Part shown: in pieces, positions 24,736 to 29,839 of the stretch
Numbering within the stretch: position 1 is the first letter of the stretch
How the letters are laid out: every line of letters starts with the position of its first letter
Origin: an uncultured Ectothiorhodospiraceae bacterium
Lineage (GTDB): Bacteria; Pseudomonadota; Gammaproteobacteria; XJ16; Halofilaceae
Assembly (NCBI GenBank): GCA_913055615.1
Contig: CAJXKK010000026.1
Span: forward strand, 1 to 35,813
Direction of reading: 5' to 3'
DNA: 35,813 nt
Position numbers and translations under genes: made by a program
Notes under the pieces: model-generated
What the model was told of the DNA's origin: nothing
The model's input: only the letters and a program-made list of their open reading frames with translations
The model's database searches: none

Positions 24736-25275
24736 TTAGCGGAATTCGCTGATGGAGTCGGCTGCGATGGTGTAGGTTGAGAGGCCGAGTTCGTTTTCGG
24801 TGGTGTCGATCTCGAGCTCGCCGACGACGTTGTAGGGGGCGTACAGGTCGGTGGGCATGCCGCCGGAGAAGGTGACGTGGACGATCTGGTTGGGCGGCGG
24901 CGGTGGCGAGTGGATGCAGGCGCCGAAATACGGTACGAGGAAAAAGCGGAATGGGTCGCCGTTTTCGGTATGCTCCAGCGGCACCAGGAAACCGGGGATG
25001 CGCACGTATTCCCCTTCGAGGTCGCCCCGCACGCGCGTCGACGAGAGGACCTCGGGCATCTTCACGTCGTCGGTGAGTTCGTCCTTGCCCGACTCGAGCT
25101 GTTCGCGGTTGAGTTCGGCCATGGTCTCGGGGAGCTGTTTCATGGCCTCGCGATCCTCCTCCGGGAGCAGGTCGAACCAGTCGAGGTCCCGGGCCTCGCG
25201 CGCATGGGTCGCGAGCGGTAATGTCAGCAGGCTGGCCAGGATGAGCGCGGTCGCGGTGCGGAGCGGGCGTGCCAT
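24736..25275 (-). CDS. DUF3299 periplasmic protein
   Basis: A 179-residue exported protein. The signal peptide spans residues 1-25 (MARPLRTATALILASLLTLP, ending THA). The mature part opens with an acidic region, then the conserved DUF3299 core: GEYVRIPGFLVPLE at about 88-101, FFLVPYFGACIHSPPPPPNQ at about 111-130 with C119 and H121, and a beta-rich end. Its biochemical role is unknown. Cys and His in the core suggest metal or redox chemistry, but that is inference. It is divergent from a MacB-like ABC transporter, with start codons only 29 bp apart (36 if the internal ATG is used). From memory, DUF3299 genes travel with such transporters, including zinc-regulated clusters in vibrios. Confidence 0.85.
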   Translation of the reverse strand: MARPLRTATALILASLLTLPLATHAREARDLDWFDLLPEEDREAMKQLPETMAELNREQLESGKDELTDDVKMPEVLSSTRVRGDLEGEYVRIPGFLVPLEHTENGDPFRFFLVPYFGACIHSPPPPPNQIVHVTFSGGMPTDLYAPYNVVGELEIDTTENELGLSTYTIAADSISEFR

Positions 25276-25304
25276 GGTCGTGTCCGGCGACGGGAGATGA
25301 GTGT

Positions 25305-26027
25305 GTGAGTATGCCCGAAAGCGCCCCCCGCAACAGTGGCGCGGTCACACTGCGCGATGTGCGGTTCGCGTGGCCGCGCGCGGCCGAGCCGGTCCTCGCG
25401 CTCGAGTCGTTCGCCATCGAGCGCGGCGAGCGCGTGTTCCTGTGCGGCCCGAGCGGCAGCGGCAAGAGCACCCTGCTGGGCCTGATCGGCGGCGTGCTGC
25501 AGCCGGGTGGGGGTGAGGTCGGTGTGCTCGGCACGGATCTCGCCCGGCTTTCGCCGGCCGCGCGCGATCGTTTCCGCGCGGACCAAATCGGCCTCGTGTT
25601 CCAGCAGTTCAACCTGCTGCCGTACCTCGGCGTGGTCGATAACGTCCTGCTTGCGACGCGGTTCTCATCGCGCCGTGCGGCCGCGGTCGGAGGGGACGCC
25701 GCCGGCGCCGCGCGTGATCTGCTGGCGGTGCTGGGCCTGGAAGACGCGCGGCTGCTGCGCTCGCCGGTGACCGAGCTCAGCGTCGGCCAGCAGCAGCGGG
25801 TCGCCGTCGCGCGCGCGCTGCTGGGCGCGCCCGGTCTGGTGATCGCCGATGAGCCGACCTCCGCGCTGGACAGCGATGCCCGAGCCGCGTTCATGGATTT
25901 GCTATTCCGGGAATGCGTGCGTACGGGGGCGACGCTGCTGTTCGTCAGCCACGATCGTGCGCTCGCGGATGGATTCGATCGCGTGGTCGAGCTGCCGGCC
26001 CTGAACCGCGCGCCGGTGCCGGCATGA
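25305..26027 (+). CDS. ABC transporter ATP-binding protein (LolD/MacB type)
   Basis: A 240-residue ATPase of the FtsE/LolD/MacB group. Walker A is GPSGSGKST. The Q-loop region is VFQQFNLLPYLGVVDNVLL. The signature motif is LSVGQQQR, a mild variant of LSGGQ. Walker B is VIADEPTSALD, with the H-loop SHD. The GTG at 25305 has GGGAG eight bases upstream. The ATG at 25311, two codons later, is an alternative with poorer spacing. The stop overlaps the permease start (ATGA at 26024-26027), so the two are translationally coupled. No membrane-fusion protein gene is nearby, unlike macAB. The substrate is unknown. Confidence 0.92.
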   Translation: MSMPESAPRNSGAVTLRDVRFAWPRAAEPVLALESFAIERGERVFLCGPSGSGKSTLLGLIGGVLQPGGGEVGVLGTDLARLSPAARDRFRADQIGLVFQQFNLLPYLGVVDNVLLATRFSSRRAAAVGGDAAGAARDLLAVLGLEDARLLRSPVTELSVGQQQRVAVARALLGAPGLVIADEPTSALDSDARAAFMDLLFRECVRTGATLLFVSHDRALADGFDRVVELPALNRAPVPA

Positions 26028-27289
26028 AGGCGCTGTTCGGGATCGCCCTGCGCAGCCTTGCGAACCGGCGGCTGACAGTCGGTCTCACGATTATCGGCCT
26101 GACGGTCAGCGTGGCGCTGCTGCTCGGGGTCGAGCAGGCGCGAAAATCCGCCCGCGAGGGTTTTACCCAGACCATCTCGGGGACCGACCTGATCGTCGGC
26201 GCGCGCAGCGGCCCGGTGCAACTGCTGCTCTACTCCGTGTTCCACATCGGCAACGCGACCAACCAGCTCTCCTGGCAGAGCTACGAGGAGATCGCCGCCA
26301 GCGATGCCGTCGCCTGGACGGTGCCGATCGCGCTCGGTGATTCCCACCGCGGGTTCCGGGTGATGGGCACCACCGACGCCGTGTTCGAACACTATCGCTA
26401 CGCGCGCTCGCGCGAACTGCGCTTCGCGGAGGGCGAGGCTTTCGCCGGCGTGTTCGATGCCGTGATCGGGGCCGATGTCGCCGCGCGGCTGGGCTATGAC
26501 GTTGGGCGAGAGATCGTGCTCAGCCACGGGGTCGCCACGACGAGCTTCCTCGACCACGGCGACAAGCCGTTCACCGTGACCGGCATCCTCGAGCGGACCG
26601 GGACGCCGCTGGACCGCAGCGTGCTGGTCTCGCTGGAGGGGATCGAGGCGATCCATGTCGACTGGCAGCAGGGGCGGCCACCGACGCCGGGCCAGCGGGT
26701 CTCGGCGGACGACGCCCGCGCCATGGATCTGCAGCCGAAGGCCATCACCGCGTTCCTGGTGGGTCTGGAATCCCGCGTTGCGACCTTCGGCCTGCAGCGG
26801 GCGATCAACGACTATACGGATGAGGCGCTCACGGCGATCCTGCCCGGGGTCGCGCTGTCCGAGCTGTGGTCGGTGATCGCCACCGTCGAGCGCGTCCTGC
26901 TGGCAATCTCCGCCTGCGTGGTGCTGGCGGGCCTGATCGGCATGGTCACGACGCTTTTGACCAGCCTGAGCGAGCGGCGGCGCGAGATGGCGATCCTGCG
27001 GGCGGTCGGCGCTCGGCCATGGCACATCTTCGTGCTGTTCATGCTGGAGGCGACCGCGATCGGGGTCGCGGCGGCGGTGCTCGGCAGTGCCCTCGTCTTC
27101 GGCGGCTTCTGGCTCGGGGCGGGCGTGATCGCCCGGGAGACCGGCATCCATCTTGAGCTCGTCGCCCCCGGGCAGAGCGAGGCCATTATCGTCGGGCTGG
27201 TGATCGCGGCGAGCGCGCTGGCGGGTGCCATTCCGGCCTGGCGCGCGTGGCGGACATCGCTCGCTGACGGCCTCTCGATCCGGCTGTGA
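26024..27289 (+). CDS. FtsX/MacB-like ABC transporter permease
   Basis: A 421-residue inner membrane protein with type VII ABC topology: one N-terminal helix (about 15-36), a large periplasmic domain (about 40-285), and three C-terminal helices (about 290-410) with the conserved cytoplasmic ERRREMAILRAVGARPWHI. It ends AWRAWRTSLADGLSIRL, typical of these permeases. Such proteins transmit force to the periplasm (LolE, MacB, FtsX) more often than they form a channel. It pairs with the ATPase at 25305 by a four-base overlap. With the divergent DUF3299 protein it may form one periplasmic system. The frame opens upstream at 25913, inside the ATPase, but that part is out of family. Confidence 0.92.
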   Translation: MKALFGIALRSLANRRLTVGLTIIGLTVSVALLLGVEQARKSAREGFTQTISGTDLIVGARSGPVQLLLYSVFHIGNATNQLSWQSYEEIAASDAVAWTVPIALGDSHRGFRVMGTTDAVFEHYRYARSRELRFAEGEAFAGVFDAVIGADVAARLGYDVGREIVLSHGVATTSFLDHGDKPFTVTGILERTGTPLDRSVLVSLEGIEAIHVDWQQGRPPTPGQRVSADDARAMDLQPKAITAFLVGLESRVATFGLQRAINDYTDEALTAILPGVALSELWSVIATVERVLLAISACVVLAGLIGMVTTLLTSLSERRREMAILRAVGARPWHIFVLFMLEATAIGVAAAVLGSALVFGGFWLGAGVIARETGIHLELVAPGQSEAIIVGLVIAASALAGAIPAWRAWRTSLADGLSIRL

Positions 27290-27335
27290 GCCTCGGCGGG
27301 CGCCGTACATCGCCCTTCATTCCGGCCAACATGCA

Positions 27336-27354
27336 AATGCAAATCGTTCCTGTT
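27336..27354 (+). promoter_or_regulatory. Fur-box-like site upstream of exbB
   Basis: AATGCAAATCGTTCCTGTT matches 13 of 19 positions of the palindromic consensus AATGAGAATCATTCTCATT. It lies 41 bases before the exbB ATG. Iron repression of exbB-exbD-exbD-tonB is the natural reading, since such operons are usually Fur controlled. Binding is not shown. Confidence 0.6.
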
Positions 27355-27395
27355 TGTGCGACCATCGCCGGTCTCGATGGTAGGGGAGATGAACG

Positions 27396-28121
27396 ATGAA
27401 CGAGTCGGGTTCGATACTCGCCCTGCTCGAGGCCGGCGGTACCGTCATGTGGATCCTCGCCGGCCTCTCCGTGTTCGCGCTGGCGATCCTATTCAACAAG
27501 TTGTGGGATTTCGCGCGCGCCGGGATCTGGCGCCGCAAACCCGTGAACCGCGCGCTGGCCGAGTGGCAGGCCGGGCGCGATGCCACGGCGGTGCAGCCGC
27601 TGGAGCATGCGCGCGATCCGGTCTCCGATGTGCTGCGCGTGGCGCTGGCGGGGTGCATGGACACGGGCGTCGATGACGCCGCGGTGCGTGAAGAGGTGGC
27701 GCGCCGCGGGGCGGCGTGGCTGGAGTCGCTGCGCGGTGGACTCCGGCCGCTGGAACTCATCGGCACGCTGGCGCCGCTGCTGGGCCTGCTGGGCACGGTG
27801 ATCGGCATGATCGACGCCTTCCGCGAGCTCGAATCCGCCGGCAGCCAGGTGGATCCGTCCGTGCTCTCCGGCGGTATCTGGGTGGCCCTGCTGACCACCG
27901 CGGCGGGGCTGTCGGTGGCGATCCCGGCGGTCGCGGCGCACACCTTCCTCGAGCGCCAGCTCGAGGGGTTGCATCACCGGATGCAGGACGCGGCGACGCG
28001 GGTGTTCAGCCGCTCCGTCGGTCGCGTCACGGCGTCCGAGCGGGCGCGCGGCGATACCGTGGCCGACGAGCGGGCGGAGCCCGGTGGGGCGAGGCTGGCG
28101 GAGGCGGCCGGTGCGGATTGA
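27396..28121 (+). CDS. exbB: ExbB-like proton channel subunit (MotA/TolQ/ExbB family)
   Basis: A 241-residue inner membrane protein that, with ExbD, uses the proton gradient to energise TonB. The first helix is at about 12-35, and helices 2 and 3 lie at about 118-140 and 155-180. The conserved Thr-bearing stretches are TLAPLLGLLGTVIGMI and WVALLTTAAGLSVAIPA. A 30-residue charged tail follows. The ATG has GGGGAG nine bases upstream. It is the first gene of a four-gene operon whose members all overlap or abut, which implies a fixed stoichiometry of translation. Confidence 0.93.
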   Translation: MNESGSILALLEAGGTVMWILAGLSVFALAILFNKLWDFARAGIWRRKPVNRALAEWQAGRDATAVQPLEHARDPVSDVLRVALAGCMDTGVDDAAVREEVARRGAAWLESLRGGLRPLELIGTLAPLLGLLGTVIGMIDAFRELESAGSQVDPSVLSGGIWVALLTTAAGLSVAIPAVAAHTFLERQLEGLHHRMQDAATRVFSRSVGRVTASERARGDTVADERAEPGGARLAEAAGAD

Positions 28122-28509
28122 TGTGCCCCGGCGCCGGCCGGTCGGTATCCGCCTGACACCGCTGATCGACGTCGTCTTTATCCTGCTGGTGTTCTTCATG
28201 CTGGCCTCCAGTTTCATGGACTGGCGCGGGTTCCGCCTGGACCTGCCGGCGGCCGATGCGACCCCGGATGCGGACGTCGATCCGCTGGTCGTGCGCGTGC
28301 TGGGCGACGGGGGCTACCGTCTCGGCGGCGTGGACCTCGCCGCGGAGGAACTGGTGGAGCGGGTACGCGCGGCCCGGGACGGGTCCGACCAGCGCCCCGT
28401 CGTTATCCAGGCGGCCCCGGACGCGCCGGTGCAGGCCATGGTGCGCGCGCTCGACCGGCTGCACGGCGGCGGTATCGAGGGGGCGTCGCTGGCGGGTGAC
28501 CCGGGATGA
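28111..28509 (+). CDS. exbD: ExbD-like protein 1, with intact membrane Asp
   Basis: A 132-residue ExbD: short cytoplasmic N-terminus, one helix at about 16-38 (LTPLIDVVFILLVFFMLASS), and a periplasmic domain. The proton-carrying Asp is present (D20, codon 28168-28170). The GTG at 28111 overlaps the last 11 bases of exbB and has GGAGG about seven bases upstream. A longer frame from 28084 is less likely. Its stop overlaps the next gene by four bases. Confidence 0.92.
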   Translation: MRIDVPRRRPVGIRLTPLIDVVFILLVFFMLASSFMDWRGFRLDLPAADATPDADVDPLVVRVLGDGGYRLGGVDLAAEELVERVRAARDGSDQRPVVIQAAPDAPVQAMVRALDRLHGGGIEGASLAGDPG

Positions 28510-28928
28510 TCGTGCCGCTGCCGCGCAGCCGCCGGACGTCGGAGGACAACGTCCTGCCGCTGATCAATATCGTCTTCCTGCTGTTGATTTTCTTCATGAT
28601 CGCCGGGGCGCTGTCGACCCGGCCGCCGTTCGAGCTGCAGCCGCCGCGCGCGCAGGCGGCCCCGCAGACGTCGGCGCCGGCGAGCGCCGGGATCGCGATC
28701 GCCGCCGATGGCCGCATCGCGTTCCGGGGCGAGGAGACCGCGCTCGAGGCGCTGGCGGAGCGCGCCCGCGCGTGGGCCGAGGGCCATGACGAAGACAGGG
28801 CGCTGACCCTGCGCGCCGATGGCGGTGCGGACAGCGAACGGCTGCTCGCGGTGATGACGGCCCTGCGGGAAGCGGGGATCGAACGCATCCGTATGCTGGC
28901 GGTTGGCGGCCAAGACGGAGCCGGCTGA
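28506..28928 (+). CDS. ExbD-like protein 2, membrane Asp replaced by Asn
   Basis: A 140-residue ExbD paralogue. The single helix reads [18 protein letters not shown], at about 17-35. The position of the essential ExbD Asp is Asn (N21, codon AAT at 28566-28568). In E. coli ExbD the Asp25-to-Asn change abolishes function. The periplasmic domain is intact, with no frameshift, so the gene is not simply decayed. Its ATG overlaps the stop of exbD (ATGA), and its own stop overlaps the tonB ATG (TGATG). A mixed ExbD pair with one proton-carrying residue is the obvious model, but it is inference. Confidence 0.9.
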
Positions 28929-29839
28929 TGCGTGGTATCCGCTGGCTGCTCGTCGGCGCGCTCGCGCTCGCGCTGCACATCGCCGTGTTCTTCGGGCTGG
29001 CCCGGGTCGTCGATGACACCGGGGCCCGGGCCAGAGGGCGCGACGGGCTGCTGGTGTCGCTCGCACCGGCCGGCAGTGCGGCCGGAAACGCCGAAGAAAC
29101 ACGCCGTACCGAGGCGCAGGAACCCCACCCCGAAACGCAGGCGGAGCCGGAACCCGAGCAGGACTCGGAGCCGGAGCCCGAACCGGAGCCCGAACCGGAG
29201 CCTGAACCGGAGCCTGAACCGGAGCCTGAACCGGAGCCTGAACCGGAGCCTGAACCGGAGCCCGAACCGGAACCGGAGCCGGAGCCGGAGCCGGAGCCGG
29301 AACCGGAGCCGGAACCGGAGCCGGAACCAGAGCCGGAGCCGGAGCCGGAACCGGAGCCCGGGCTGGAATCAGAAATCGAAGCCGACGCCCGAGCGGAACG
29401 CGAATCAGCGGTCGCGGCCGCGTCAGGCGAGGAACCACCGGTCGAGGATCCGGACGAGCGCGAGACCACGGCGGGCGACGCGGGGCAGGTCGAGCCCGAG
29501 GGCGATGCGGGTTCCAGCGCCGATGGCGCCTCCGGTGGCGGTGACCCGGGCGCCCGCGCCGACTACCTCGATCGGCTGCGCGCACACCTCGGGCGTCACA
29601 AGGCGTATCCGCGCCGCGCCCGCGCGCAGCGCATCGAGGGGACGGTAACCGTGGGCTTCACCGTCCATCCGGATGGCCGCATCACCGATATGCGGGTCGA
29701 CGAGCCCTCCGGTCACCGGATCCTGGATGAGGCGGCCGCGCGCATGCTCGAGCGGGCCTCCCCGGCGCCGTCGTTCGACGAGGATATGGATCAGTCGCCG
29801 ATCACGCTGAGCCTGCCGGTCAGTTATGGGCTGCGGTAA
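28928..29839 (+). CDS. tonB: TonB energy transducer with an exceptionally long Glu-Pro spacer
   Basis: A 303-residue protein spanning the envelope. The N-terminal anchor helix is at about 5-25, with His17 in ALHIAVF, similar to the TonB signal-anchor His. Residues 81-144 are 32 consecutive Glu-Pro pairs (29168-29359). Most TonB spacers mix EP with KP or other pairs, and this one is wholly acidic. A second acidic linker follows. The C-terminal domain starts near 215 ([23 protein letters not shown]) and has the TonB fold signature [20 protein letters not shown]. It ends the operon, and the ATG is coupled to the second exbD. Confidence 0.93.
29168..29359 (+). repeat. Hexanucleotide tandem array coding (Glu-Pro)32
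   Basis: 32 six-base units of the GAGCCG / GAACCG / GAGCCT / GAGCCC type fill 192 bases without interruption. Synonymous changes between units show it is not freshly amplified. It is prone to expansion or loss in multiples of two residues without a frameshift. Confidence 0.95.

Follow-up and report, generated by a model that had tools for sequence, protein, structure and literature searches.

The window analysed here, a 35,813-nt stretch of DNA from an uncultured Ectothiorhodospiraceae bacterium, carries an operon of the order exbB-exbD1-exbD2-tonB (27396–29839, + strand, all genes overlapping), and it raises the question of what an ExbD protein does in a Ton motor when it lacks the aspartate that carries the proton. 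Translation of the open reading frames confirmed the preliminary description of two tandem ExbDs of which the second is without the membrane Asp, the motif context being TPLIDVVF in ExbD1 and LPLINIVF in ExbD2. The overlaps claimed there are also present, an ATGA shared by exbD1 and exbD2 (28506–28509) and a TGATG at the junction of exbD2 and tonB (28926–28930). The end of exbB overlaps the start of exbD1 when exbD1 is read from 28111; a GTG at 28123 is an alternative possible start.

Table 1. Features of the exbB-exbD1-exbD2-tonB operon, in window coordinates.
Feature	Position	Strand	Product	Profile match and details
Fur-like box (GCAAATGCAAATCGTTCCTGTTT region)	27333..27355	+		upstream of exbB
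exbB	27396..28121	+	241 aa, MotA/TolQ/ExbB family	PF01618 103 bits
exbD1 (Asp-bearing ExbD)	28111 (GTG)..28509	+		PF02472 79.1 bits; PLIDVVF; Asp codon GAC 28168-28170
exbD2 (Asn-bearing ExbD)	28506 (ATG)..28928	+	140 aa	PF02472 80.2 bits; PLINIVF; Asn21 codon AAT 28566-28568
tonB	28928..29839	+	303 aa, TonB C-terminal domain	PF03544 71 bits
tonB His17	28976-28978			in TM helix
tonB D-box-like LLVSLAP	29048-29068
tonB long Glu-Pro repeat

Apart from this one residue, ExbD2 is an ordinary ExbD by Pfam and by predicted fold. The PF02472 scores of both ExbDs (Table 1) widely exceed the Pfam cut-off of 25.4 bits, and a phmmer search against the PDB aligned Asn21 of ExbD2 with Asp25 of E. coli ExbD (6tyi). 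The AlphaFold model of ExbD2 (mean pLDDT 80) has a single TM helix (residues 19–35) followed by a periplasmic domain, and its best PDB matches by Foldseek, 8p9r and 8vgd, are ExbD bound to TonB or to a D-box peptide; the one TM helix and the periplasmic fold of the family are thus both found in the predicted structure. By translation and alignment, the TM-helix Asp equivalent to E. coli D25 is absent from ExbD2, where Asn21 takes its place, and present in ExbD1. Judged from its sequence, ExbD2 is a member of the ExbD family by descent and cannot be classed as a proton carrier.

To see how constant this split is, loci of the order exbB-exbD-exbD-tonB were gathered by profile, protein and pair searches that were blind to the residue, covering 369 genomes class-wide and 398 genomes phylum-wide plus follow-up regions; the search profiles were built from Asn-bearing members, which gives a slight bias toward Asn. 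The alignment column reads Asp/Asn in 44 of the 49 loci, Asp/Ser in three and Asp/Asp in two, and since the loci were found without selection for the residue, the Asp/Asn pairing is not a matter of chance. The D/N type occurs in no fewer than 23 of the 369 class genomes and no fewer than 20 of the 398 phylum genomes (the two sets overlap). The same Asn is present in the two other genomes of the genus, whose ExbD2 proteins are 88% and 54% identical to this one, so the residue is not a sequencing error. Among 85 ExbD2s with less than 80% pairwise identity, most of which come from an Asn-selected scan, the Asn is 97% conserved as against an overall column identity of only 43–47%, which argues for selection on the Asn rather than a decayed Asp.

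The preliminary description had asked whether the second ExbD always has Asn, and had named Asp in close relatives as the finding that would count against it. Asp never occurs there, and nearly all relatives pair Asn with an Asp-bearing ExbD1, but the rule is broken by two distant loci (L196:1600-2405 and L206:1498-2383) that have the same gene order and Asp in both ExbDs. These could represent an ancestral-like state or a return to Asp. With support 98, the ExbD2 of L206 is sister to the Asn-bearing ExbD2 of L198; between these two sisters there has been at least one change of residue, and the residue can thus differ without loss of the operon. The three Ser cases belong to one family (L053, L054 and L188, from genomes G319, G220 and G104) with small genomes of 1.6–1.9 Mb. 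Pfam found no TonB-dependent receptor in two of these three, G319 and G220, and for this reason their Ser-type motor may drive something else. Over these alignments, the Asp/Asn asymmetry proves to be both old and conserved.

A scan of 84,980 species genomes with the pattern N[IV]VFLLL[IV]F returned at least 533 related stretches, in Gamma- and Alphaproteobacteria. Because this pattern demands Asn, we rejected the 80 loci taken from it as a test of Asn conservation and used them for taxonomy, the partner Asp and neighbouring genes only. Among the matches listed, the named gammaproteobacterial range comprises Ectothiorhodospiraceae, Thioalkalivibrio, Halorhodospira, Nitrococcus, Salinisphaera, Alloalcanivorax and Thiocapsa, and the alphaproteobacterial range many Rhodospirillales, Kiloniellales and others. 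Such exbD pairs are not found mainly in marine gammaproteobacteria, where the preliminary description had placed similar ones; they occur in halophilic, alkaliphilic and phototrophic Gammaproteobacteria and in very many Alphaproteobacteria. Of the 80 loci read, nearly all have an Asp-bearing exbD as the preceding gene. In 112 D/N or D/S operons the junction of exbD1 and exbD2 is mostly overlapping or nearly so, with a gap of −4 in 30, −1 in 10 and mostly within 12 bases. Two Aurantimonadaceae loci (L139:5821-9719 and L153:5863-9731) have the operon broken up and partly inverted, with exbD-N, exbD-D and exbB within about 4 kb.

Two trees placed ExbD1 and ExbD2 in two parallel clades, though many forks are unresolved and the sequences are short, and by this arrangement the two copies arose early, before the operon spread. 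By these trees and alignments the two are an ancient paralog pair in which ExbD1 keeps the proton-carrying Asp and ExbD2 has a neutral polar Asn, rarely Ser. ExbD1 and ExbD2 distances remain correlated once ExbB and TonB are taken into account (partial r 0.54, versus 0.25 and 0.32 with ExbB), which weakly backs a heterodimer, adjacent genes having a shared history. In a Rhodovibrionaceae MAG (L140:4085-4600), a third exbD precedes exbB. It carries Asp, falls within the ExbD2 clade and seems chimeric, with an ExbD1-type start containing PLIDVIF and ExbD2-type sequence past the TM helix.

The rest of the motor looks functional, since ExbB keeps both essential threonines and TonB keeps its TM His and an ExbD-binding motif. 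T134 and T168 of ExbB match T148 and T181 of E. coli ExbB, and across 110 ExbBs from D/N or D/S operons the equivalents of these two are invariant (100%). In sampled sequences read by eye, the TonBs of D/N loci have the TM-helix His and a short alternating hydrophobic strand, the D-box call being a pattern match only, to the D-box pattern of PMC10907165. The features expected of a Ton motor, namely the ExbB pore Thr, the TonB TM His, the D-box by pattern and the TonB C-terminal domain, are thus all present. Loss of the glutamate close to the ExbB pore (E. coli E176) was considered as a matching change and rejected, as this position varies in D/N and other ExbBs alike.

The likely job of the operon is Fur-regulated iron (siderophore) uptake, a reading supported by Fur-like boxes and by the TonB-dependent receptor and FecCD permease that lie upstream of the operon on one contig in the closest relative. 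Fur-like 19-mers with at least 12 matches occur upstream of exbB in 38 of 103 D/N or D/S loci, where about 8 are expected from mononucleotide shuffles. The box in the window, taken alone, is weak: it matches the classical consensus at 11 of 19 positions, with 6.9% of shuffles as good, and a variant consensus picked after seeing the site at 15 of 21. Receptors also flank the operon in the named loci L105 and L149 and adjoin it by coordinates in six genomes (G040, G091, G129, G203, G243 and G346). In genome G186, which carries TonB-dependent receptors, the only intact TonB is that of the D/N operon, a second TonB match holding a stop codon, and by gene content it is therefore very likely that this operon works as a Ton system in G186. 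The two TonBs of G040, an 81% complete genome, both belong to D/N operons.

The host genome (3.0 Mb, 87 contigs) has four ExbDs: the D/N pair, tolR in a tolQRA cluster that meets curated cut-offs, and one in a cluster of comEC-exbB-exbD-msbA-type (ABC transporter)-lpxK. Since the other two sit in these clusters, the D/N operon is the only exbB-exbD-tonB operon of the host. We rejected the stronger idea that it is the host's only ExbBD motor, given the second exbB-exbD pair beside comEC and lpxK and the tolQRA cluster. The genome has six TonB-dependent receptor matches, one of them partial. Further TonB C-terminal domains were seen at C10:59154-59390 and C21:1236-1469, neither of them near an ExbD match in the genome; a TonB-dependent receptor match lies some 0.9 kb from the former.

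Compared with the E. coli Ton motor (ExbB5-ExbD2-TonB), the operon shares both ExbB threonines, the ExbD fold, the Asp in ExbD1 and, in TonB, the TM His, the D-box-like strand and the C-terminal domain, but E. coli has one ExbD forming a homodimer with two Asp and the window has two paralogs, one with Asn. Tandem exbD genes as such are already known from Xanthomonas, Stenotrophomonas, Flavobacterium, Riemerella and Sphingobium. The tonB-exbB-exbD1-exbD2 operons of Xanthomonas campestris and Stenotrophomonas maltophilia (PMC3551730, PMC11002078) likewise combine two tandem exbD with one exbB and one tonB, though there tonB comes first and here it comes last. A locus with tonB first (L066), likened to Xanthomonas by gene order only, carries Asp in each of its ExbDs, and these two group together in the tree, pointing to a separate duplication; the window operon differs from this type in order, residue and duplication. 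Another tandem, exbB-exbB-exbD-exbD-tonB with two exbB-like genes (L065 and L197), also has two exbD before tonB but keeps Asp in both, in another clade, and both of these tandem types fall outside the ExbD1 and ExbD2 clades. Among the Bacteroidota, Riemerella anatipestifer has two adjacent exbD in the same gene order, exbB-exbD-exbD-tonB, and Flavobacterium psychrophilum has a Ton system with two adjacent exbD, likened here by gene content (both PMC4446302, PMC3551730).

The AglR-AglQ-AglS gliding motor of Myxococcus, like this operon, combines one ExbB-like with two ExbD-like proteins (PMC9389320), and whether AglQ and AglS heterodimerise is stated there as unknown. Eight Agl-like loci (L068–L072 and L074–L076; e.g., L068:1759-2786), which by gene content we infer to be AglRQS homologs, have longer ExbDs, the first with Asn (TAFMNLMVIL) and the second with Asp (SLMDIFTIL) in 7 of 7 read. 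AglQ and AglS of Myxococcus are both reported with Asp (PMC9389320), whereas these gammaproteobacterial pairs are Asn/Asp. They are common in larger gammaproteobacterial genomes, with a TonB-like protein next in most loci, and form their own supported clade away from ExbD1 and ExbD2; the window proteins fall outside that clade of long ExbDs. From these trees, the one-sided Asp/Asn pattern seems to have two origins, with the gene order reversed between them.

With modest confidence, we take the best explanation to be a Ton energizer whose axle consists of two specialised ExbD paralogs, an obligate ExbD1-ExbD2 heterodimer in the ExbB pentamer. An ExbBD motor has two ExbD chains inside five ExbB, and because the two paralogs are co-translated, one ExbD1 with one ExbD2 would be the simplest assembly. 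Such an axle would leave a single proton site in the motor, with ExbD1 taking up and releasing the proton and ExbD2 acting as a permanently neutral partner that resembles protonated Asp. In MotB, Asn is used to imitate a protonated Asp (D22N; PMC9389320), and by the same reasoning a fixed Asn in ExbD2 would be a permanently neutral site. ExbD2 would also fill the other half of the periplasmic groove gripping the TonB D-box. One D-box is bound between two ExbD periplasmic domains, with the chains contacting it differently (PMC10907165), and an ExbD heterodimer would fix this two-way contact.

It is possible, and we offer this more tentatively, that the operon encodes a naturally occurring rotary motor of 5:2 stoichiometry, its axle a fixed Asp/Asn heterodimer with a single proton site, which powers uptake, and that an Agl-like motor reached the same asymmetry separately. 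A dimer that still turns would move 72 degrees per proton and use 5 protons per turn, with a torque limit half that of the normal 5:2 motor and its 10 protons; one whose two sites have to alternate would only rock back and forth. Published models have two axle Asp that alternate, so that each proton drives a step of 36 degrees and a full turn takes 10 protons (PMC9389320, PMC12215075). If it exists in nature, a motor with one Asp would tell these models apart and make them directly testable. In our own reading, the rail model (PMC9389320) needs the charged and neutral sites to swap, so continuous rotation should come to a halt when one site is a fixed neutral Asn; the Santiveri model (as described in PMC9389320) needs both sites to be neutral, so steps of 72 degrees would be open to a motor with such an Asn. 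Unlike homodimeric motors, an asymmetric complex would have ExbD chains distinguishable by cryo-EM or labelling. We found no description of a conserved Asp-lacking ExbD partner or an ExbD heterodimer in openly licensed papers, and an earlier mention elsewhere is possible.

Against a D/N motor stand the two Asp/Asp loci described above and the behaviour of mutants. As the preliminary description had stated, Asn at this position abolishes activity in E. coli, where ExbD D25N is inactive (PMC11658791). In Myxococcus, proton conductance is lost with AglQ D28N (PMC3858216), even though AglS too is reported to have the Asp (PMC9389320), so an artificial D/N pair may not work. ExbD1 alone might form a working homodimer, with ExbD2 in separate proton-tight (or mixed) ExbB complexes serving as a brake, reserve or signalling unit. 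The inactive E. coli mutant fits this, as does exbD2 of Xanthomonas, from another tandem, which is dispensable for iron uptake and needed for pectate-lyase induction (PMC3551730). Neither the strict translational coupling to exbD1 nor the keeping of Asn or Ser across wide divergence would be expected of a dispensable brake, however, and the Xanthomonas gene order, as in L066, goes with Asp in both copies and a different clade; we regard this alternative as unlikely. Less likely again is that ExbD2 is mainly a structural half of the axle, giving an asymmetric dimer for D-box or peptidoglycan binding, in a motor where a single Asp suffices, so that losing the other is tolerated and serves no mechanistic purpose. 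Its predicted periplasmic domain does match the D-box-bound ExbD fold, and the D-box does contact the two ExbD chains differently (PMC10907165), but a tolerated loss should give varied residues where only Asn, Ser and Asp are seen, and the Agl-like pair reached the same split separately. That ExbD2 is a degenerate duplicate without function is very improbable and was rejected: it does lack a residue essential in E. coli ExbD (PMC11658791), but the gene is intact, overlapping and kept across families of two classes with this position almost invariant.

Two further features of the region may be mentioned. The TonB linker (window 29166-29358) has about 30 EP units encoded by a GAGCCGGAACCG-type tandem repeat and is unusually acidic. 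Directly upstream of exbB (window 24736-27289), a DUF3299 gene on the − strand lies beside an ABC ATPase and an FtsX/MacB-type permease, and an FtsX-type permease is found upstream of the operon in the closest relative too (L211:10608-12197).
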